Origin: an uncultured Prevotellaceae bacterium
GTDB taxonomy: Bacteria; Bacteroidota; Bacteroidia; Bacteroidales; Bacteroidaceae
Assembly (NCBI GenBank): GCA_900315095.1
Contig: OMXS01000016.1
Location: 1 to 64,000 of the forward strand
Reading direction: 5' to 3'
Length of the DNA stretch: 64,000 bases
Shown here: piece by piece, positions 3,286-24,168 of the stretch
How positions within the stretch are numbered: the stretch's first letter is position 1
Layout of the letters: each line of letters starts with the position of its first letter
Position numbers and translations under genes: made by a program
The notes under the pieces: model-generated
Seen by the model: only the letters and a program-made list of their open reading frames with translations
Databases searched by the model: none
Told to the model about the DNA's origin: nothing

Positions 3286-3591
3286 GTTGTTTCGAGTTTT
3301 ACACAAGTGTTTCAACTCCCCTTAGAGGAGACCATCAACAATTTAAATCGTGAGAGAGGCAATACCCTCCTGACCTCCCCTTCTAGGAGGAGGAAATGTT
3401 CCGTGTAATCCCATCAACAATTTAATGATGGTATGTGATTTCAACCTCCCTCCCTACGGGGGGAGAGTCGGAGAGGGGTTTCCAATGAAGAGTCTGTACC
3501 CAAGCGTGATGTCGTCAGAGGCTATCCAAAGAATAAAATCTATACTTTTATTTGAGATTTTTTAGCCATCTTCTGCAATCCCTTTGTTTAA
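3286..3591. repeat. Interspersed GC-rich repeat sequence, no gene
   Basis: The segment holds blocks of the kind CCTCCCTCCCTACGGGGGG and phrases such as CAACAATTTAA and AGGAGGAGGAAAT that also occur at 98-360 and 4430-4580. No credible reading frame or structured RNA was recognised. Confidence 0.5.
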
Positions 3592-3858
3592 ACGGCATGC
3601 GAGAATTATGTAAAATAATTCGCACGCCGAGTCAACAAGTCAACAAGTCAACAAGTCAACAAAAGGGTTTTTAAGATTGTCATGATGGAAGACAGATGAC
3701 AGGTGAGAGAGCTGTGCTGTGATGTACAAAAATATATGTATATATAATTTATATTTTATATATATTATAATATATATAAAATATAAGAAATAAGACAAAT
3801 AAAATCGCGAGTTCGGAAAAGGGCATTTGTTGACTTGTTGACTTGTTGACTTGTTGAC
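3592..3858. repeat. Hairpin followed by inverted octamer arrays
   Basis: A hairpin at about 3592-3630 pairs CGGCATGCGA...AATTAT with ATAATTCGCACGCCG. Directly after it are four copies of the octamer GTCAACAA (3631-3662). The reverse complement, TTGTTGAC, occurs four times at 3827-3858. The two arrays can pair over about 32 bp around a 164-bp AT-rich interior with runs of TATATA. The reading frame on the minus strand across it is a product of the repeats, not a gene. Confidence 0.75.
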
Positions 3859-3941
3859 TTTCAATATGCCCTTCGAACGTTTTTTATAGTGTAAAAAAAA
3901 TGTTTACTTTTTCAATAAAATATGGGTATTTTTCAAAAATC

Positions 3942-4091
3942 TTCCGACCTATTTCCGACCATTCCCGACCTTTGCTGAAATGCCCTAAAACAAAGGGTTT
4001 CGCTACTTTTGGGACAAAATTTTCCGACCTAAAATGGTCGGAAGAAATTCGCGTTTTTTCTTGCAAAACGCTCTTCCATTTTGTATCTTTG
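3942..4091 (+). promoter_or_regulatory. TTCCGACC box cluster upstream of an orphan promoter
   Basis: TTCCGACC or its close variant TCCCGACC occurs at 3942, 3953, 3963 and 4022, with an inverted GGTCGGA at 4036. The first three starts are 11 and 10 bp apart, one helical turn. A good Bacteroidetes promoter follows: TTG at 4061-4063, 20-bp spacer, TATCTTTG at 4084-4091. No gene starts within the next 600 bp, so the promoter may belong to a lost gene or to a small RNA. Confidence 0.55.
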
Positions 4092-4756
4092 CAGTAAGAG
4101 AATTGAGAACGGGTAATCGATAATTGACAGCCGGCAGTCACTCATCATTTCCTCTCTCATCTCTAAACAATCGCTCGACCCCACAGGGGGCGCTCCGTAG
4201 GTGCTCAGGCGTAATGCGGAGTCCAAAGCGGAGCGACTAAAAGAAACTTAAACTCTAACTTATTATTAACCAACGCCCACTACACAAAATGTGACTCAAA
4301 CCTCTCCCTTGGGGAACCAACGGTCGCTGGTCAAAGGGAAAAGCAATTGGGCATAGGGTGGGCCTAAAACTTTAAACATTATGGCAGTACTTTACCAAGA
4401 CAATCGAGACAATCCCCTCCTGCCTCCCCCCGCTCGGCTCCGCCGCTTGCTAGAGCAAGAACTAGGAGGAAATATTCGGTGTTAATCCACGAAATCCGTG
4501 CCAAAAAATGTGCACGAACAATCCCTGCCACCTGATGGAGGTTCGGGCGCACACGGGGGAGCGCCCCTACAATTTAATGATGTACTCCCCTTCCTACGTG
4601 GGAGGGTTGGGGGAGAGACCGTTAGAGGCTTTTCGGGGGCTAAGTGATATACATTTGGGATGCCAAAAGGTATATCAGACAGAGTGTGAAAGGACATATA
4701 TTACACAGATTAAACTTTTTGCGACATTGCCCAAGAGAATTGTTGCTGTAATTTAC
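4092..4756. repeat. Repeat-rich leader before the glycoside hydrolase run
   Basis: No gene is seen. The segment carries several repeat modules that recur in this window. One is ACGGTCGCTGGTCAAAGGG near 4320, seen again near 9770, 25920 and 30467. Another is a block of about 110 bp at 4586-4700 that reappears inverted at 27584-27690. A GCGCACACGGGGGAGCGCCC piece near 4549 matches the repeats at the left edge. Confidence 0.6.
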
Positions 4757-9844: not shown

Positions 9845-12217
9845 ATGAACAAGTTTTTATTCACAGCGCTCTTCACCTTAATGGCATTAGGTGCAGAGGC
9901 ACAAGACAGGCTCTATGCCGACGAGTTCCCGCTGGGTGACGTAACCCTGCTCGACGGTCCGCTGAAAAAGGCGCGCGACCTAAACATCAAGACTCTGCTG
10001 CAGTACGACTGCGACCGTCTGCTGGCTCCTTACCGCAAGGAGGCCGGACTACAGCCGAAGGCAAAGGCCTATCCCAACTGGGACGGTCTGGACGGTCATG
10101 TGGGCGGACATTATCTCACGGCGATGGCCATCAATGCAGCAACAGGCAACGACGAGTGCCGCAAGCGTATGGAGTACATGATCAGCGAACTGCAGGAGTG
10201 TGCCGACGCCAACGCCAAGAACCACCCCGAATGGGGCAAGGGTTATGTGGGAGGTATGCCGGGCAGCGACAGACTGTGGTCTACGTTCAAGCAAGGCAAC
10301 TTCGGCGTGTACTTCGGCTCGTGGGCTCCGTTCTACAACCTGCATAAGATGTACGCCGGACTGCGCGACGCGTGGCTCTACTGCGGCAACGAGCAGGCAA
10401 AGACGCTGTTCCTGGGTTTCTGCGACTGGGCCATCGACCTCACCGCAGGTCTCAGCGACGCACAGATGGAGAACATGCTGGGCAACGAGCACGGAGGCAT
10501 GAACGAAGTGCTGGCCGACGCCTACGCTATCACCAAAGAGAAGAAGTACCTCGATGTGGCCAAGCGCTTCTCTCACCGCCGTCTGCTCACACCTATGTCG
10601 CAGCGACAGGACTGTCTGGACAACATGCACGCCAACACTCAGGTGCCTAAGGTGGTGGGCTTCGAGCGAATATCAGAACTGAGCGGCAACGAGACATACC
10701 ACACCGCGAGCCAGTATTTCTGGGACATCGTGACGGGCGAGCGCTCGCTTGCATTCGGAGGCAACAGCCGACGTGAGCATTTCCCCAGCAAGGAGGCATG
10801 CACCGACTTCATCAACGACATCGACGGTCCCGAGACGTGCAACACAAACAACATGCTGAAACTGACCGAGGACCTGCACCGCCGCAATCCTGAGGCGCGC
10901 TTTGCCGACTTCTACGAACTGGCTACATTCAACCACATACTCTCGTCACAGCATCCCGAGCACGGCGGATACGTATATTTCACACCAGCCCGCCCGCGCC
11001 ATTATCGCAACTACTCGGCACCCAACGAGGCAATGTGGTGCTGCGTGGGAACAGGAATGGAGAATCACGGGAAGTACGGACAGTTCGTTTACACTCATGT
11101 GGGCGACGCCCTCTTCGTGAACCTCTTCGTGTCGTCGGAACTCAACTGGCGCGAGAAAGGTGTAACGCTGCGTCAGGAGACACAGTTCCCCTACGCCGAA
11201 ACAAGCAAGATAACGATAACAAAGGGCGGAGGCGCGTTCCCGCTGCTGCTGCGCTACCCGGGATGGGTGAAGCCCGGAGAGTTTGCTGTTAAGGTGAACG
11301 GCAAGGCTGTGAACATCTTCAGCGGACCTTCAAGTTACATCACAATAGACCGAAAGTGGAAGAAGGGCGATGTCATCGACATCACGTTCCCAATGCACAA
11401 CAGCATCAGTTATCTGCCTAACGTGCCGCAGTATATCGCGCTGATGCACGGTCCTATACTGCTCGGAATGAAGACGGGAACAGAAGACCTCGCGCACCTC
11501 ATCGCAGACGACAGCCGCTTCGGACAGTATGCCAGCGGAAAGAAACTGCCTATCAACGAGGCGCCTATCCTCATCAACGACGATATCGACGCAATAGCAT
11601 CACAACTGCAGCCCGTAAGCGGAAAACCGCTGCACTTCACGCTGAGCACCAAGACCGTAAACGGCATCAAGGGCGAACTGCAGCCGTTCTTCGAGATACA
11701 CGACAGCCGCTATATGATGTATTGGCTGGCTCTCTCGGAGAACAGTTATAAAGACTACCTCGCCGACCTGGCCAAAGCGGAACAGGAGCGACAGGCGCTG
11801 GAGGCACGCACAGTAGACAAGGTGCAGCCGGGTGAGCAGCAGCCGGAGACCGACCACAAGATGGAGACCGACCAGTCGTATACAGGCAACTCAAACGATG
11901 TGTTCTACCGCGATGCACGCGACGGCCACTACTTCAGTTACCTCATGCAGACGGGCGGCAACGAACAACTATCGCTGCGCCTGAAATACTGGGGTGTGGG
12001 CGAATGGAAGACTCACGAGTTCGACATCTTCGTAGACGACGTGCTGGTGAAGTCGGTAAACAATACAGGCAAGTACCGCATCTCTGAGTTCAAGTACGAG
12101 ACCTACCCGCTGCCCGCCGAAGTGCTCAAGGGCAAGAGTCAGGTGCGCGTTAAGTTTGTGGCTAAGCCGCACCGCCAGATTGGAGAGATTTATGAAGTCA
12201 GACTGGTAAAAGAATAA
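9845..12217 (+). CDS. GH127/GH146-type beta-L-arabinofuranosidase (DUF1680), exported
   Basis: The 790-residue protein has a signal peptide (MNKFLFTALFTLMALGAEA) and a DUF1680 alpha/alpha barrel starting VTLLDGPLKKARDLN. The zinc-thiolate centre known from HypBA1 can be matched: Glu330 and Cys332 in GPETCNTNN, and Cys399-Cys400 in MWCCVGTG, one Cys of that pair being the expected nucleophile. A beta-sandwich and an extra C-terminal domain follow, joined by a stretch rich in Glu and Gln near residues 650-680. It should release beta-L-arabinofuranose from side chains. It follows the GH2 gene after 223 bp of repeat DNA and precedes the next GH2 gene by 4 bp. Confidence 0.9.
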   Translation: MNKFLFTALFTLMALGAEAQDRLYADEFPLGDVTLLDGPLKKARDLNIKTLLQYDCDRLLAPYRKEAGLQPKAKAYPNWDGLDGHVGGHYLTAMAINAATGNDECRKRMEYMISELQECADANAKNHPEWGKGYVGGMPGSDRLWSTFKQGNFGVYFGSWAPFYNLHKMYAGLRDAWLYCGNEQAKTLFLGFCDWAIDLTAGLSDAQMENMLGNEHGGMNEVLADAYAITKEKKYLDVAKRFSHRRLLTPMSQRQDCLDNMHANTQVPKVVGFERISELSGNETYHTASQYFWDIVTGERSLAFGGNSRREHFPSKEACTDFINDIDGPETCNTNNMLKLTEDLHRRNPEARFADFYELATFNHILSSQHPEHGGYVYFTPARPRHYRNYSAPNEAMWCCVGTGMENHGKYGQFVYTHVGDALFVNLFVSSELNWREKGVTLRQETQFPYAETSKITITKGGGAFPLLLRYPGWVKPGEFAVKVNGKAVNIFSGPSSYITIDRKWKKGDVIDITFPMHNSISYLPNVPQYIALMHGPILLGMKTGTEDLAHLIADDSRFGQYASGKKLPINEAPILINDDIDAIASQLQPVSGKPLHFTLSTKTVNGIKGELQPFFEIHDSRYMMYWLALSENSYKDYLADLAKAEQERQALEARTVDKVQPGEQQPETDHKMETDQSYTGNSNDVFYRDARDGHYFSYLMQTGGNEQLSLRLKYWGVGEWKTHEFDIFVDDVLVKSVNNTGKYRISEFKYETYPLPAEVLKGKSQVRVKFVAKPHRQIGEIYEVRLVKE

Positions 12218-12221
12218 GAAT

Positions 12222-14465
12222 ATGAGACAAAAAGGTATGACAATCTTGCTTATAGCGGCAATGTTGCTATTGGCAGGCGAGATTTCAGCAAAGTCGGCAA
12301 AACTGCCTCGAAAGCAACTGCTCAACGACAAGTGGCAGTTCGCGCTCAACGACAGCGACTTCACACGCGCACGCAACGTGACGCTGCCACACGACTGGAG
12401 CATAGAGCAGCGCTTCGACGCCAACGCTCCTGCAGGCAACGACGGAGCCTATCTGCCTACGGGCAAGGGGTGGTACCGCCGCGTGCTCACTCTCGGCGAA
12501 GCCTACAAAGACAAGAAGGTGCGCCTATACTTCGAGGGCGTATATATGAACTCCCACATCTATGTCAACGGGCATCTTGCTGGCGGCTGGCCTTACGGTT
12601 TTTCTGGATTCTGGGTGGACGTCACACCTTATATTAAAATAGGGCAAAACGAGATAGTGGTCAGCGTGGACAACTCGCAGCAGAAGAACTGCCGCTGGTA
12701 CACGGGCTCGGGCATCTATCGCAACGTGTGGCTCGTAACCACACCAAAGACATATATCGACGACTGGAGCGTGCAGGTGGCCACACCCGACATCAATCAT
12801 GTGGAACTCTCTGCAACAGTAATCCGCGAGGACGGCACCACATATCCGCTGAAGCGCACCATAGAGGTGCAGCAGCCGCGTCTGTGGTCGCCCGACGACC
12901 CTTACCTCTATGAGGCTGAACTCGAGGTGCCTGGCACCGACCGCATCACCGTAACCTACGGCATACGCACCATAGAGTATGACGGAGAGAAAGGACTGCG
13001 CCTCAACGGCAAGCCCATAAAACTGAACGGAGCCTGTCTGCATCACGACAACGGAATACTGGGTGCTGCTGCCTACGACGATGCAGAGTATCGCAAGGCG
13101 CGACTGATGAAAGAGGCGGGATTCAACGCTGTGCGCACATCACACAACCCTCCGTCGGAGGCTTTCCTTCGTGCATGTGACGAGGTGGGACTGCTGGTCA
13201 TCGACGAACTTTTAGACGGGTGGCGCGAGCATAAGAACGAGAACATCTACGACTACTCCACCCTCTTCGACCAATGGTGGCAGCGTGATGTCGACGCTTT
13301 CGTGTGCCGCGACCGTCTGCATCCCAGCATCTTCTGCTGGTCAACGGGCAACGAGGTGATTGAACGCAAGAAAATTGAGATAGTGAAGACCGCTCACAAC
13401 CTGGCGGAGCGCATACGCGCCAACGATCCGCAGAAGCGTCCCGTAACATCTGCTCTTGCTGCATGGGACCGCGACTGGGACATCTACGACCCGCTGGCTG
13501 CCGAGCACGACATCGTGGGATACAACTACCTGATATTCCTGGCAGAAGGCGACCATCAGCGCGTGCCCAAGCGCGTCATCATACAGACGGAGAGTTATCC
13601 GCGCGACGCTTGGAACAACTACCGCCAGGTAATGAACCACTCATACATCTTCGGCGACTTCGTATGGACAGGACTCGACTATCTGGGCGAGTCGGGCATC
13701 GGACGTTACTACTATGAAGGCGAGACTCCAGGAGAGTCGTGGGAGCGCCCGCTCTATCCTTGGCACGCTGCCTACTGCGGCGATGTTGACTTCACAGGAT
13801 TGCGCAAGCCCATCAGTCACTATCGCTCTATGTTGTGGAATGAGAAAGGCGAGAGTCTTTTCCTCGCGGTGCTCGAGCCCGACGGATATTACGGCAAAGT
13901 GAAGACCTCAATGTGGAGCACTTGGCCCACACAGGAGAGCTGGACTTGGCCAGGATGGGAGGGTAAACCCGTCGTTGTTGAGGTGTACAGCCGCGAGCCT
14001 AAGGTGAGTCTATATCTCAACGGAGAGTTGGTTGGCGAACAAGCGACAAAGGAGATGAAAGCAACGTTCACGCTGCCCTACCAGCCTGGAACGCTGTGCG
14101 CTAAGGCTGGCGGCGAGCAGAGGGAACTGCAGACTGCTGGAGCGCCTGCCGCTATACGTCTCACAGCCGACCGCAACAGCATCGATGCCAACGGTCTGGC
14201 GTTCGTAACGGTGGAAATAGTCGATGCACAGGGACGCGTGGTGACGACAGCCGACAACCGACTCACGTTCAACGTAACAGGGAACGCTACTCTCCTTGCT
14301 GCAGGAAACGGTAACGGAAAAGACGAAGACCCGTACTTCGACAACCAGCATAACACTTGGCACGGTCGCGCCCTCGCCGTAATACGCAACAACGGAAAGC
14401 AGGGAAAGGCGACACTCAACGTCACCGCTAAGGGACTGCCCTCAGCCAGCATATCAATAAAGTAA
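12222..14465 (+). CDS. GH2 glycoside hydrolase (beta-galactosidase-like), exported
   Basis: The 747-residue GH2 enzyme has an N-terminal signal segment (MTILLIAAMLLLAGEISA), a jelly-roll domain, a short Ig-like linker, a TIM barrel and C-terminal Ig-like domains. The acid/base is Glu378 in STGNEV and the nucleophile Glu457 in IQTESYP. The barrel begins LNGACLHHDNG, a form common in shorter Bacteroidetes GH2 enzymes. The Ig-like domain between the jelly roll and the barrel seems about 40 residues shorter than in relatives I recall. The gene starts 4 bp after the arabinofuranosidase stop, so the two are translated from one message. Confidence 0.9.
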   Translation: MRQKGMTILLIAAMLLLAGEISAKSAKLPRKQLLNDKWQFALNDSDFTRARNVTLPHDWSIEQRFDANAPAGNDGAYLPTGKGWYRRVLTLGEAYKDKKVRLYFEGVYMNSHIYVNGHLAGGWPYGFSGFWVDVTPYIKIGQNEIVVSVDNSQQKNCRWYTGSGIYRNVWLVTTPKTYIDDWSVQVATPDINHVELSATVIREDGTTYPLKRTIEVQQPRLWSPDDPYLYEAELEVPGTDRITVTYGIRTIEYDGEKGLRLNGKPIKLNGACLHHDNGILGAAAYDDAEYRKARLMKEAGFNAVRTSHNPPSEAFLRACDEVGLLVIDELLDGWREHKNENIYDYSTLFDQWWQRDVDAFVCRDRLHPSIFCWSTGNEVIERKKIEIVKTAHNLAERIRANDPQKRPVTSALAAWDRDWDIYDPLAAEHDIVGYNYLIFLAEGDHQRVPKRVIIQTESYPRDAWNNYRQVMNHSYIFGDFVWTGLDYLGESGIGRYYYEGETPGESWERPLYPWHAAYCGDVDFTGLRKPISHYRSMLWNEKGESLFLAVLEPDGYYGKVKTSMWSTWPTQESWTWPGWEGKPVVVEVYSREPKVSLYLNGELVGEQATKEMKATFTLPYQPGTLCAKAGGEQRELQTAGAPAAIRLTADRNSIDANGLAFVTVEIVDAQGRVVTTADNRLTFNVTGNATLLAAGNGNGKDEDPYFDNQHNTWHGRALAVIRNNGKQGKATLNVTAKGLPSASISIK

Positions 14466-14566: not shown

Positions 14567-14647
14567 GTATCTCGCAAAGACCAACATAAGCAGACTTAAA
14601 TGCTTGTAAAAATGTTCGTTTTATTTGTCAAAACAAGAACTAAACAA

Positions 14648-14677
14648 TTGTCAGAAAAATAAATATATCTATCTTTG
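14648..14677 (+). promoter_or_regulatory. Promoter of the vitamin B6 operon
   Basis: TTG at 14648-14650, a 19-bp spacer and TATCTTTG at 14670-14677 match the Bacteroidetes -33/-7 pair. The ATG follows 23 bp after the -7 box, leaving a very short leader. Confidence 0.7.
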
Positions 14678-14700: not shown

Positions 14701-15588
14701 ATGAAAAAGAGAACACAACCGATACTGACAATCACAGGAAGCGACCCCACAAGCGGCTCGGGCATCCAGGCAGACATCAAGACGATGACGGCGCTGGGCG
14801 GTTATGCAATGACCGTAATCACAAGCATCACGGCACAAACCACCTACGGCATCCAGCAGTTCCACGATATTCCGGCATCTGTGGTGAAGGAGCAGATAGA
14901 GGCGGTGATGAACGACTTCCAACCTCGTATTGTCAAGATAGGAATGGTGCGCACGATAGAGACGCTTGAGGTTATTGTCTCAGCCCTGAGGAAATACCGC
15001 CCCGAACATGTCATCTATGATGCGGTTCCCGTTTCATCGCAGGGCGAGCAGATGATGAGTGAGAGTATGGCTGAAGCCATACGTCGTGAATTGCTGCCGC
15101 TGTGCACGCTGGTGCTGAGACTTGACGACAGAGATATGCACGGAATGGCGAACCGCTACGCCAGCGCGGTGGCTGTATATCTGAGCGAAGGAATGACGGT
15201 GGAGCAGGCACAGCAACGGGCACGCAAGTACATCAGCACGCAGATAGTGAGGACAAGCAACCTGGAGGGGCGAGGCGCAGAACTATACAACAGTTTCCTC
15301 GACCATCTGTCGGAGCATTACACGCAGAACCGCGATGTTCATTTCTACGCCGACCTACTGAACGTGAGCAGCCGTTATCTGGCACAAGTGACGCGCCGCA
15401 TAGGGGGAAAGGCACCAAAGGCGATAATAGACGAATATCTAGTGGAACAGGCGGAACGCCAACTGCTTTGCACGGATAAGACTGTACAGCAGACGGCTTA
15501 CGAACTGGGGTTCTCGTCACAGGCTCACTTCACGAAGTTCTTCAAGAAGATGAAGGGCGAGAGTCCGAAAGAATTCAGAAAGGGATAA
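14701..15588 (+). CDS. ThiD/PdxK-like pseudokinase fused to an AraC-type DNA-binding domain
   Basis: Residues 1-175 follow the ThiD/pyridoxal-kinase fold: [35 protein letters not shown] and the phosphate-side helix [10 protein letters not shown]. About 80 residues between LLPLCTL and that helix are missing compared with ThiD. The anion-hole motif GTGC/GTGD is replaced by GMAN (148-151), so phosphotransfer is unlikely. Residues 190-295 are a two-HTH AraC domain ending in [25 protein letters not shown] infer a regulator that binds a B6 vitamer or a pyrimidine through the dead kinase and controls pdxST, 29 bp downstream. A residual kinase function cannot be excluded. Confidence 0.85.
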
Positions 15589-15617
15589 CACATTTACACA
15601 AAATAAACATTAAAAAC

Positions 15618-16496
15618 ATGAGCAAAGAGAACAGACAAGAACTGAACCGCAATCTGGCGCAGATGCTTAAGGGCGGTGTGATAATGGACGTAACAACACC
15701 CGAGCAGGCACGCATCGCCGAAGAGGCGGGAGCATGCGCCGTGATGGCTTTGGAGAGAATTCCTGCCGACATACGGGCAGCAGGTGGCGTGAGCCGCATG
15801 AGCGACCCTAAGATGATTCGAGGTATTCAGGAAGCGGTGACTATTCCTGTGATGGCGAAGTGCCGCATAGGACATATTGCCGAAGCGCAGATACTGCAAG
15901 CGATAGAGATTGACTATATCGACGAGAGCGAGGTACTCTCGCCTGCCGATAACATCTACCACATAGACAAGACGAAGTTTGACGTGCCTTTCGTGTGCGG
16001 TGCAAAAAACTTGGGCGAGGCTTTGCGAAGGATTGCCGAAGGTGCCACGATGATTCGCACGAAAGGAGAGCCAGGAACAGGCGACGTAGTGCAGGCGGTG
16101 AGTCACATGCGACTGATGCAGAGCGAGATACGACGTTTGGTGTCGATGAGCGACGATGAACTCTACGAGGCGGCGAAACAACTGCAGGCACCATACGAGC
16201 TGGTGCGCTATGTGCATGAGAACGGTAAGTTGCCTGTAGTGAACTTCGCTGCTGGAGGTGTGGCGACGCCTGCTGATGCGGCACTAATGATGCAACTGGG
16301 TGCTGAAGGTGTGTTCGTGGGCAGCGGTATCTTCAAGAGCGGCAATCCCGCAAAGCGAGCGCAAGCGATTGTGAAGGCTGTTACCAACTACAACGACGCA
16401 AAGATGCTGGCGGAACTGAGCGAGGATCTCGGTGAGGCGATGGTGGGTATCAACGAACATGAAATAGAACTGCTGATGGCAGAACGCGGCGTATGA
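15618..16496 (+). CDS. pdxS: Pyridoxal 5'-phosphate synthase, synthase subunit
   Basis: PdxS makes PLP from ribose 5-phosphate, glyceraldehyde 3-phosphate and ammonia supplied by PdxT. The 292 residues match the family length. The active-site stretches are present: [34 protein letters not shown] with the Lys-equivalent region, [20 protein letters not shown] and [20 protein letters not shown]. It overlaps pdxT by four bases (ATGA), so the two subunits are translationally coupled. It follows the pseudokinase-AraC gene in one operon. Confidence 0.97.
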
Positions 16497-17038
16497 GAAT
16501 AGCGATACTATCTCTGCAAGGCGCTTTTGCCGAACACGAGGCGATGCTGCGCCAACTGGGTGCAGAGACCTTTGAGGTGCGCAAACTGTCCGACTGGCAG
16601 CAACCTAAAGATGGTCTCATAATACCCGGCGGGGAATCGACAACACAGATGAAACTGCTGCGCGAACTGGGGATGGCCGACGTAGTGAAGTACGCTATCA
16701 ATGAGGGTCTACCTGTCTTCGGTACCTGTGCAGGACTGATAATGCTCTCACAGTCGCACCTTGCAACTATGGACATCGAGGCTCAGCGCAACGCCTACGG
16801 CAGACAACTGGGCAGTTTCTCCACCGTGCACGAAGTGGCGGAAATAGGCAAAGACATCCCGATGACATTCATCCGTGCTCCTTTCATCAATCGTGTTTAC
16901 GGAAAGGCGCGAGAACTAGCGACAGTTGACGGGCGTGTCGTAGCAGCACGTCAAGACAACCAACTCGTCACAGCGTTCCACCCGGAACTGACCAACGACC
17001 TCCGCATTCACGACTATTTCCTAAGCATTATTGGGTGA
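16493..17038 (+). CDS. pdxT: Pyridoxal 5'-phosphate synthase, glutaminase subunit
   Basis: This class I glutaminase hydrolyses glutamine and channels ammonia into PdxS. The 181 residues contain [23 protein letters not shown], the nucleophile Cys in [10 protein letters not shown], and the His-x-Glu of the triad in AFHPELTND. The ATG lies within the pdxS stop overlap. The gene ends 240 bp before the GH31 gene, in a region with GGTGATG heptamer repeats. Confidence 0.96.
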
Positions 17039-17170
17039 TGGGGTGTTAGGTGATGGGTGATGGGTGATGGGTGTTGGGGGTCACAACTTTTTTCTTTTAG
17101 CCAACACCTATCACCCAACAACCCGCTCGACCCCATAGGGGGCGCTTTGCTTGCAAAGAACACCTAACAA
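17033..17170. repeat. GGTGATG heptamer tract and inverse partner
   Basis: From the pdxT stop, heptamers of the type GGTGATG/GGTGTTA repeat about six times (17033-17077). The inverse motifs CACCTATCACCC and CACCTAACAACC follow at about 17105-17180, so the region can form a loose hairpin. Part of it (CGCTCGACCCCATAGGGGGCG) also occurs near 1745 and 4175. Confidence 0.6.
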
Positions 17171-17235
17171 CCGCCCATCAACCGCCCTACAAAAAAATAA
17201 TTGGCAAAAGACACTCTTTTTTCAAGTATTATGAT

Positions 17236-17278: not shown

Positions 17279-19684
17279 ATGAAAAGAATCCTTTTGGCCA
17301 TAGCCGTATTGGGTTTGTTCAGTTCGTTGCAAGCCCAGAATGTCGTGAACTGGAATACAGGAAAAATGGACGTGAAGGTGGAATACTTCACACCATCCAT
17401 CGTGAGAATAGTAAAGACACCAACGGGCAGCGAGTCGCGCCAGCCGAGTCTGGTGGTGCTTGCAAAACCAGAAAACGTAAGCATCACGGAAAAGGGAAAG
17501 AGCGTGACAAGCGGACAACTGGAGGTGAGACTCGACCCGAAGACAGGAGCACTTACTTTTGCCGACAGCAAGGGACGCGTGCTGCTGAAGGAGAAGGACT
17601 GCACTATGGAACGACTCACAACAGGCGGTAATACCGGAGAGTATACCGTAGGACAGACTTTCACGTTGCAGAAGGACGAGGCGATATACGGTCTGGGCAC
17701 CTTCCAAGACGGAAAACTGAACCGCAGAGGAGCGCATAAACTGATGGAGCAGTCGAATCTGGAGGACTTCCAGAACGTCATCCAGTCGGTGAACGGATGG
17801 GGATTATACTGGGACAACTATTCTCCAACGCAGTTCGACGACGATGCCAACGGTATGACACTACGCTCCCAGGTGGGCGACCGCATAGATTACTACTTCA
17901 TGCTGGGCGGTTCTGCCGACGGCGTGATAGCACAGATGCGCCACCTCACGGGCGATGTGCCTATGTTCCCGCTGTGGACATTCGGTTATTGGCAGTCGAA
18001 AGAGCGCTACAAGACGAGTGACGAACTGCTGTCAGTAGTCAGCAAGTACCGCGAACTGCACGTTCCTCTCGACGGCATCATACAAGACTGGCAGTACTGG
18101 GGTTCCAACTATTTGTGGAACGCTATGGACTTCCTCTCTGAAGACTTTGCACAGGGAGCGCAGATGGTGAAGAAAGCCCACGACATGAACACGCACCTCA
18201 TGATAAGCATCTGGGCAAGTTTCGGTCCGATGACAAAAGCATACCGTCAGTTGGCAGAGAAAGACCTGCTCTTCAGTTTCCAAACCTGGCCGCAGAGCGG
18301 ACTCACCTCGTGGCCGCCGCGTATGGAATATCCTTCAGGAGTGCGTGTGTATGACGCCTTCAGCGCAGAGGCTCGCGACATCTACTGGCAGAATCTGAAA
18401 ACACTATACGACTACGACATCGATGCGTGGTGGATGGACTCTACCGACCCTGACTGCTTCTACCCTACCGACAAAGACTACGACCATAAGGCTGGCACAA
18501 ACGGCACTTGGCGCTCGCTGCGCAACGCGTTCCCGTTGGAAACCGTTCGTGGCGTGTATCAGAAGCAAAGGGAAGAATCATCAAACAAGCGCATATTCAT
18601 AATGACTCGCTCGTCGTTTGCAGGACAGCAGCACTACGGCTCGAACATGTGGAGCGGCGACGTGTCGTCTTCATGGGACATGTTGCGCAAGCAGGTGCCC
18701 GCAGGACTGAACTTCACGTTGACAGGCAACCCAAACTTCAACACCGACATCGGCGGTTTCTTCTGCTCAGCATATAACACCCGAGGTGCTGGCTCTGCTC
18801 CGCGCAACCCGCAGTTCCAGGAACTCTACGTAAGATGGATGCAGTACGGACTGTTCTGCCCGGTGTTCCGCAGTCACGGAGCCGACGCTCCCCGCGAGAT
18901 ATGGCAGTTCGGGCAAAAGGGCGAGCCGATATACGACGCAATAGAGAAAACCATCCGTCTGCGCTACCGCCTCATTCCTTATCTATATAGTACTGCCTGG
19001 CAGGTGACATCAGCCAACGAGAGTTACTTGCGACCGCTCATCAGCGACTTCGCACAGGACAAACGCGTGTGGGATATGGCCGACGAGTTCATGTTGGGCC
19101 GCAGCATCCTCGCTGCCCCGATACTGGAACCGCAATACACCGAGGAGCGCGTCATCAAAGAAGACGCTATGACAGGATGGGACAAGAAAGAAATCGCAAC
19201 TGACAATTCTGTCCAGAATGTCGATTGGAAAGCAAACAAATCCACTACGAAGTACCTGCCGCGCGGCACACGCTGGTATGATTTCTGGACAGGCAAAGCA
19301 TACAACGGCGGGCAGAACGTCACTCTGACCACCACTATCGACCGCACGCCGATATTCGTTAAGGCGGGCAGCATACTGCCGCTGGGCCCCGAGATGGAAT
19401 ATGTGGGACAGAAATCGTGGGAGAATCTCGAGATACGCATCTATCCTGGCGCCGACGGCACATTCACTCTCTATGAAGACGAGGGCGACGGATATAACTA
19501 CGAAAAAGGCGTCTATGCCACAATCCCGTTCCTATGGAATGACAGCAAGCGCACACTCACTATCGGACAGCGACAAGGCTCTTATCCCGGAATGCTCTCC
19601 AGCAGACAATTCACCGTCATTCTGCCCGACGGCAGCAGTTACAAGGTAAGTTACGACGGAACACAGCAGGACATCAAATTATAA
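17279..19684 (+). CDS. GH31 alpha-xylosidase/alpha-glucosidase, exported
   Basis: The 801-residue protein has a signal peptide (MKRILLAIAVLGLFSSLQA). It shows the GH31 order: N-terminal beta-sandwich, a TIM barrel with LDGIIQDWQYWG, the nucleophile Asp387 in WWMDSTDPD and the acid/base Asp461 in WSGDVSSSWD, then C-terminal beta domains. GH31 enzymes of this size with WMDSTDPD are often alpha-xylosidases acting on xyloglucan fragments, which fits the fucosidase, galactosidase and GH3 neighbours. Alpha-glucosidase activity is the main alternative. It is co-directional with GH3 16 bp downstream. Confidence 0.88.
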   Translation: MKRILLAIAVLGLFSSLQAQNVVNWNTGKMDVKVEYFTPSIVRIVKTPTGSESRQPSLVVLAKPENVSITEKGKSVTSGQLEVRLDPKTGALTFADSKGRVLLKEKDCTMERLTTGGNTGEYTVGQTFTLQKDEAIYGLGTFQDGKLNRRGAHKLMEQSNLEDFQNVIQSVNGWGLYWDNYSPTQFDDDANGMTLRSQVGDRIDYYFMLGGSADGVIAQMRHLTGDVPMFPLWTFGYWQSKERYKTSDELLSVVSKYRELHVPLDGIIQDWQYWGSNYLWNAMDFLSEDFAQGAQMVKKAHDMNTHLMISIWASFGPMTKAYRQLAEKDLLFSFQTWPQSGLTSWPPRMEYPSGVRVYDAFSAEARDIYWQNLKTLYDYDIDAWWMDSTDPDCFYPTDKDYDHKAGTNGTWRSLRNAFPLETVRGVYQKQREESSNKRIFIMTRSSFAGQQHYGSNMWSGDVSSSWDMLRKQVPAGLNFTLTGNPNFNTDIGGFFCSAYNTRGAGSAPRNPQFQELYVRWMQYGLFCPVFRSHGADAPREIWQFGQKGEPIYDAIEKTIRLRYRLIPYLYSTAWQVTSANESYLRPLISDFAQDKRVWDMADEFMLGRSILAAPILEPQYTEERVIKEDAMTGWDKKEIATDNSVQNVDWKANKSTTKYLPRGTRWYDFWTGKAYNGGQNVTLTTTIDRTPIFVKAGSILPLGPEMEYVGQKSWENLEIRIYPGADGTFTLYEDEGDGYNYEKGVYATIPFLWNDSKRTLTIGQRQGSYPGMLSSRQFTVILPDGSSYKVSYDGTQQDIKL

Positions 19685-24040: not shown

Positions 24041-24168
24041 GTTCTTTCATTTGTCATCTTTTGCAAGGCGATTTGTCATCTTTTGCAAGGTGAGTGGGCA
24101 CCTTTTGCAAGGCGATTGGGCATCTTTTGCAAGGCGATTGGACACCTTTTGCAAGGTGATTAGGCATC
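24041..24168. repeat. Five 22-bp tandem repeats of the CTTTTGCAAGG type
   Basis: Complete units start at 24050, 24072, 24094, 24116 and 24138, with a partial unit at 24160 that overlaps the 3' end of the DUF554 gene. The shared core is (A/C)(T/C)CTTTTGCAAGG(C/T)GA. Some units form a small hairpin, such as CACCTT-TTGC-AAGGTG at 24143-24158. The leader GTTCTTTCATTTGTCATCTT at 24041 is the same as at 22420. The ATPase gene is thus bracketed by direct copies. Confidence 0.85.

Follow-up and report, generated by a model that had tools for sequence, protein, structure and literature searches.

The window analysed here is a stretch of 64,000 nucleotides, and the feature of interest within it is an operon in which a gene for a ThiD-like kinase domain fused to an AraC-type DNA-binding domain precedes pdxS and pdxT, the genes for the two subunits of pyridoxal phosphate (PLP) synthase (Table 1). 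This order had been described in an earlier, sequence-only reading of the same DNA, and all three open reading frames were found in their places and identified by both Pfam and NCBIfam. The fusion gene is separated from pdxS by 29 nt, and pdxS and pdxT overlap by 4 nt. Glycoside hydrolase genes with no evident tie to vitamin B6 flank the operon, GH2 before it (12222-14465) and GH31 after it (17279-19684), and the DNA 3' of pdxT (17039-17180) carries GGTGATGGGTGATGGGTG repeats, with a partly complementary copy further downstream.

Table 1. Genes and predicted regulatory elements of the pdxST operon in the window
Feature	Position	Strand	Basis or remark
Predicted operator box 0, TTGTAAAAATGTTCG	14604..14618	+	Upstream block; third half-site, by eye, 20-21 bp before box 1
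Predicted operator box 1, TTTGTCAAAACAAGAAC	14624..14640	+	Best PWM match in the window; sole match in the genome with fewer than 3 mismatches
Predicted operator box 2, ATTGTCA	14647..14653	+	Overlaps the -33 promoter region; 23 bp from box 1
Predicted -7 promoter element, TATCTTTG	14670..14677	+	TTTGCA at one column in the ungapped site alignment of relatives
Putative regulator: eroded ThiD-like domain and AraC-type DNA-binding domain	14701..15588	+	295-aa ORF; Pfam, NCBIfam, alignment and model
pdxS, PLP synthase lyase subunit	15618..16496	+	NF003215, 512 bits (cut-off 395)
pdxT, PLP synthase glutaminase subunit	16493..17038	+	TIGR03800, 198 bits (cut-off 106)

The proposal that half of a ThiD-type kinase had been joined to a complete AraC domain was confirmed by Pfam, by NCBIfam and by sequence matches in the structure database. 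The Pfam profile Phos_pyr_kin matches the window ORF with an E-value of 7.4e-47, the best stretch covering profile positions 1-123 of 246 and a second piece positions 190-238, and HTH_18 is covered from position 1 to position 79 of 80 (E 1.2e-22, 80.4 bits). The ThiD-like domain takes up about residues 1-190 of the protein and the AraC-type domain about residues 196-295, the latter being the C-terminal domain of some 100 residues with two helix-turn-helix motifs that is the hallmark of the AraC/XylS family. The solved structures nearest residues 1-140 are those of ThiD enzymes, which also match weakly over a second stretch at a GMAN motif, and from about residue 196 the matches are to AraC domains. 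The GntR-type wHTH and the aminotransferase-like domain of the MocR-type regulator PdxR gave no match in the window protein with Pfam or NCBIfam. The NCBIfam model for ThiD, TIGR00097, scores 157 bits, below its cut-off of 205, and the B6 kinase models score 80 bits; since the sequence is thus nearer to the hydroxymethylpyrimidine phosphate (HMP-P) kinase than to the B6 kinases, the ancestry of the pocket appears to lie on the thiamine side.

The substrate-side motifs GSD, GIQAD, TxQ and KxGM are all present in the window protein, as the sequence-only reading had it. The catalytic motif GTGC of ThiD enzymes is replaced by GMAN, also as claimed: HGMANRYAS stands at the position at which 32 of 35 ThiD controls have HGTGCTLSS, and GTGC itself is found in all 35, a set pre-selected for GTG and for a length range, which leaves only the count of the Cys unbiased. 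One figure had to be corrected. The missing segment had been put at about 80 residues, and it comes to about 62, as 13 residues lie between P133 and H147 in the window protein and 74-78 in 28 of the 35 ThiD enzymes (range 65-97). In ThiD this stretch bears much of the ATP side, and the window protein does not have the full-length ribokinase fold with that side intact.

A comparison with known structures, also suggested at the outset, was made with an AlphaFold2 model of the window protein (mean pLDDT 90.4, pTM 0.74; alignment with 57 relatives), and in Foldseek the model resembles both ThiD and pyridoxal-kinase structures. The matches include the ThiD structures 7r8y, 4jjp and 1jxi (HMP-type ligand) and the ThiD-type pyridoxal kinases of B. 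subtilis and S. aureus, the latter with pyridoxal, and the C-terminus of the model matches AraC-type domains, 3lsg and 6swi among them. A further match, 4ywr, is the ThiD of A. baumannii in a non-covalent complex with a ligand whose name begins with "pyridox", which we take to be pyridoxal phosphate. This structure suggests that a ThiD-type pocket can hold a B6 vitamer.

The window protein has many relatives, and 75 distinct fusions from the fetched loci were compared with the 35 ThiD enzymes. The fusions were chosen by a regular expression and de-duplicated, whereby L054, L084, L106 and L116 dropped out, and L192-L197 were fetched later; in L054 and L116 the motif was seen, likewise without the Cys. 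The catalytic Cys is present in none of the 75 fusions and in all 35 controls, and neither GTGC nor GTGD occurs anywhere in the 75. On the substrate side, GSD (13-15), D25 and HG (147-148) are kept in 75 of 75, K79 in 74 and Q46 in 70, and the retention noticed in the window protein thus holds for the family. The spacer between P133 and H147 comes in a graded series: 73-80 residues in 19 fusions, 90 and 117 in two, 26-51 in 16 and 13-19 in 38. The short-spacer state requires three changes on a tree built without the spacer stretch, two of them forced by well-supported branches; the tree was built rapidly, was rooted arbitrarily and has some branches that are long. The recurrence of the same fusion in 75 distinct sequences excludes chance, and catalysis would have been lost early, because the full-length fusions also lack the Cys. 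The simplest reading of these sequences is an early loss of catalysis, after which the ATP half was shed more than once and the substrate side retained. An eroded ATP side next to a kept substrate side is the pattern expected from a switch of catalysis to ligand sensing.

A survey of Bacteroidales for the same fusion, which had been recommended, found it tied to pdxST both within the family Bacteroidaceae and outside it. In a sample of 301 Bacteroidaceae genomes, pdxS is present in 59, and at least 51 of these 59 carry the fusion (52 copies among the matches listed), which leaves eight pdxS-bearing genomes with no fusion among the matches listed. In all 51 fusion genomes among these matches, pdxS shares a contig with the fusion; 46 of the 52 copies lie within 1 kb of it and all within 7.4 kb, and 48 are upstream on the same strand, two divergent and two convergent. 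None of the 242 Bacteroidaceae genomes without pdxS has a fusion among the matches listed, in which a weak fusion could be missed. All 22 genomes sampled from the genus of the window have either both fusion and pdxS (16) or neither of them (six). Among loci taken from named records, which partly overlap those of the genome sample (e.g., L076 and L056), pdxS lies in the fetched stretch of 28 of 34; the six in which tblastn did not find it are L087 and L099, which stop at a contig end, and L094, L095, L100 and L116. The order sample of 295 genomes gave a match spanning the whole junction in six, the window's own included, the other matches being AraC domains, and all five fusion genomes outside the family have a copy beside pdxST. 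A phylum sample of 345 genomes at E 1e-40 gave a match in the window's own genome only. In the eight fusion-less genomes, no replacement regulator beside pdxST was obvious by eye in the ORF list, in which shadow ORFs hid pdxS in some loci.

A few fusions depart from this arrangement. Those of the Paludibacteraceae/Colimorpha type, namely L094, L095, L100 and L194 (the last a second copy in genome G318, with no pdxS within the fetched 11 kb), have no pdxST in the fetched stretch and look unlinked; they may have another target. L094, L095, L099 and L100 group in a single clade, in which the spacer has 26 residues; L100 keeps an operator-like site, and the gene downstream encodes a kinase that bears a weak likeness to thiamine kinase (67 bits against a cut-off of 299). 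The fusion of Palleniella muris (L116), with no pdxST in its stretch, has a gene for a fucose permease on its upstream side and, some 3 kb downstream, one for a pyridoxamine kinase (NF005491, above cut-off). At L167 (genome G259), the full fusion (3344-4444) lies 7 kb from pdxS, an AraC-domain remnant of the same kind (11292-11627) stands directly before pdxS, and a frame between the two is, by eye, a probable transposase; the arrangement looks like an insertion-linked duplication.

The DNA ahead of the fusion genes was searched for a shared operator motif, as had been advised, and conserved repeats were found. If a site that scores above 15 and leaves room to either side is counted as strong, 50 of 73 upstream regions have one, or 45 once near-copies are removed; the consensus of the strong sites is TTTtnTTTgTCAaAAanGGAACantATTTtGtca. 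Its two TTTGTCA boxes repeat in direct orientation at a distance of 22 bp; in the window an additional base separates boxes 1 and 2, and the distance is 23 bp. The second box of the consensus falls on the -33 region, and the TTTGCA of the -7 element follows at an unvarying interval; the window's version of that element, TATCTTTG, we take to be of the Bacteroidetes TAnnTTTG type. Further upstream lies another conserved block, TTntncAAAntG, which was outside the position weight matrix (PWM) used for anchoring; averaged over 25 columns, its information is 0.35 bit per column, and none of 300 random-offset sets exceeded 0.08. By eye this block reads as a third direct copy, 20-21 bp off, and is also open to an inverted reading. 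Direct repeats about 21 bp apart near the promoter are what AraC/XylS half-sites look like, and the sequences argue strongly that the fusion protein would bind the predicted operator.

The window's own site is the top PWM match in the 64 kb, narrowly, at 12.3 against 10.9 with the window left out of training, and it scores below the sites of close relatives; box 2 is indistinct in some relatives (e.g., L040 and L044). In the host genome, the window's 23-bp pattern has one match without mismatch, and the next matches have three mismatches. A wider regulon in the host was considered and rejected: the 22-bp pattern has seven matches, all with two or three mismatches, against seven for a reversed control, and the 23-bp pattern has 20 against seven, with the operon site alone having fewer than three mismatches. 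Tandem units like TTTGTCATCTTTTGCAAGGCGA lie in non-operon DNA of the window (22424 and 24045-24165) and include the best false match of the 22-bp pattern scan; their likeness to an operator is probably chance.

The most telling test came from loci in which the fusion has moved or no longer shares a transcript with pdxS. The first PWM scored its own training sequences; the window and the split loci were left out of training for the relocation test. For L049, L050, L102, L045, L052, L103, L107 and L047, training included the region on the fusion side and excluded the tested one on the pdxS side. Each region was set against 200 randomised versions made by first-order Markov sampling. The pdxS upstream region beat all 200 in 13 of 22 cases, the regions being partly non-independent, as the near-copies L171/L172 and L049/L050 are among those 13, and in none of eight fusion-less controls. 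At L171/L172, L165, L166 and L169 (the fusions of L165 and L166 being L048 and L053), the motif is missing upstream of the fusion and a match lies 84-185 nt before pdxS; at L062, L072 and L075 the site lies between fusion and pdxS; and at L049/L050 there is a site before each. L168, L170 and L051 narrowly missed, their scores being reached by 5, 3 and 5 of the 200 randomised versions; on the pdxS strand, L102 and L047 (18 and 8) and the divergent loci L045, L052, L103 and L107 (6, 61, 66 and 179) fell short. Upstream of the fusion of the later-fetched L192, a site scores very high, at 42.7. Once the fusion has left the head of the operon, the site usually remains with pdxS.

With a ThiD-like domain in the protein, thiamine has to be considered as well as B6. 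The host genome, 99.98% complete, holds no second ThiD, no ThiC and no PdxJ, and has one weak TMP-TENI match; a pyridoxamine kinase is encoded elsewhere in it. As PdxJ is missing, PdxST is the only recognised de novo B6 route of the host, and with ThiD, ThiC and PdxJ all missing, thiamine sensing makes little sense there. Across relatives, thiamine linkage was gauged from the position of ThiC, which at E 1e-20 is matched in 24 of the 51 listed fusion genomes and unmatched in 27; of the 24, 19 have it on a contig other than that of the fusion, and in the remaining five it is over 300 kb from the fusion. Genomes G056 and G092 have a separate ThiD match, some 1 kb away from ThiC. It had been reasoned that relatives found mostly next to thiamine genes and never near pdxST would speak against a role in B6 control, and the opposite was observed, with the fusions tied to pdxST and ThiC distant. 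A thiamine regulator was rejected for the host, and is unlikely elsewhere.

It is probable, in our judgement, that the fusion is a pdxST-specific regulator of the AraC type, with a dead, ThiD-derived kinase as its sensor, a B6 vitamer as its ligand, and activation of the operon by the apo form. The sensor would be a ThiD-type kinase that has lost its catalytic residue and kept its substrate pocket, with most of the ATP side gone in the window's lineage. Subunits, probably joined via the kinase domain, would set their AraC domains on the tandem half-sites, the last of which overlaps the -33 element of the regulator-pdxS-pdxT operon. The bound ligand would most likely be a B6 vitamer, PLP first, and its binding would end the activation exerted by the ligand-free form, giving product feedback. 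Within this scheme, PLP or pyridoxal as the ligand and dimerisation through the kinase domain are suggested more tentatively, as is activation when B6 is low, which is drawn by analogy. AraC-type activators usually have one box at the -33 element and others farther upstream. An apo-activator switched off by PLP is proposed because the half-sites fit that layout and because PdxR offers a precedent, these regulators, as described in the available part of one study, activating pdxST without PLP and being switched off by it (PMC5320631). The idea of an enzyme turned into a sensor for B6 control, with which the sequence-only reading had begun, gains support at the level of sequence from the lost Cys, the kept pocket, the linkage to pdxST and the predicted operator. 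A broader proposition, which we favour on balance and hold with less assurance, is that these proteins form a new Bacteroidales family of B6 sensors in which an emptied ThiD active site binds PLP and controls AraC-type activation of pdxST, and whose relatives preserve stages of an erosion in which the ATP half was lost independently at least twice.

Among the alternatives, the one that departs least from this scheme keeps the regulator and the class of ligand and reverses the sign, the fusion being a repressor or an activator that needs its ligand. A protein on box 2 could block polymerase at the promoter, and genomes alone cannot tell the sign; the layout of the boxes is nevertheless typical of AraC-type activators, and the precedent of PdxR, in the available part of its description, is activation by the apo form (PMC5320631), so that we regard the reversal as unlikely. 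A sensor of HMP or HMP-phosphate, the ancestral ligand, which would couple B6 synthesis to thiamine precursors, is distinctly improbable. The kinase part is closest to ThiD HMP-P kinases and the retained motifs are those of the ThiD substrate side, yet the host has neither ThiC nor a separate ThiD, ThiC is unmatched in 27 of the 51 listed fusion genomes and remote from the fusion in the others, and no riboswitch is among the Rfam matches of the window at gathering score.

The two remaining alternatives are far less credible. A bifunctional protein, regulator and working kinase at once, might be imagined from the 19 of 75 fusions with a ThiD-like spacer and the two with a longer one, but the catalytic motif and its Cys are lost in all 75 and the window form is without most of the ATP side; on these sequences an active kinase is very improbable and was rejected. 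Least credible of all is a functionless, decaying fusion that lies beside pdxST by chance. Recurrent deletions in the kinase half would agree with decay, but the AraC domain and the pocket motifs are conserved in open frames, the operator is conserved and, in most split loci, remains with pdxS, and throughout the genus the fusion and pdxS occur together or not at all.

The conversion of enzymes into sensors is already known, from the MocR regulators and, reportedly, from archaeal ThiR, and AraC regulators are common. ThiR is said to be a thiamine regulator made of an HTH and a ThiN domain; like the fusion, it would be a one-component regulator with a vitamin enzyme domain reused as its sensor, and it differs in the enzyme, the vitamin, the DNA-binding domain and the domain of life. 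With one-component regulators of the AraC family, the fusion shares a complete C-terminal double helix-turn-helix and tandem half-sites abutting the promoter, whereas the usual N-terminal sensor of that family has a cupin-like fold and that of the fusion is a former kinase. With the ThiD and ThiD2 (PdxK) kinases (1jxi, 2i5b, 4c5l, 4ywr), it shares the fold and the substrate-side motifs; these enzymes have the catalytic Cys and the ATP-side segment, both gone in the window form, and the fusion has gained the AraC domain. MocR-type PdxR, as far as the available part of its description goes, is likewise an enzyme-derived sensor next to pdxST with direct operator repeats and likely PLP feedback (PMC5320631). 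It consists, however, of a GntR domain and an aminotransferase-like domain (a fold-type-I PLP enzyme) in place of an AraC domain and a ribokinase/ThiD fold, and the fusion, unlike PdxR, in most cases precedes pdxS on its own strand (48 of 52 copies).

In the portions of the literature examined, regulators of the PdxR (MocR) type are the only ones described for pdxST. Searches of an open-access collection found no ThiD-AraC fusion, no ThiD-derived sensor, no AraC-type or other non-MocR regulator of pdxST and no graded erosion of a kinase, in keeping with the initial remark that no characterised regulator of this build was known for pdxST. If the preferred reading is true, Prevotella and its relatives possess a regulator devoted to B6 that acts at a defined operator, and the fusions are a rare graded record of an enzyme becoming a sensor. 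An experimental hint comes from the available text of a study of P. bivia grown in a triple-species biofilm, in which the ten genes raised most include pdxT, pdxS and one annotated as an HMP/HMP-P kinase, with fold changes of 3.43 for pdxT, 3.03 for pdxS and 2.68 for the "HMP kinase" gene, PREBIDRAFT_RS05120 (PMC11410844). The last is probably the fusion gene, and if so, its annotation as a "bifunctional hydroxymethylpyrimidine kinase" (PMC11410844, same text) would seem to be wrong for such proteins and could mislead calls of thiamine and B6 prototrophy.
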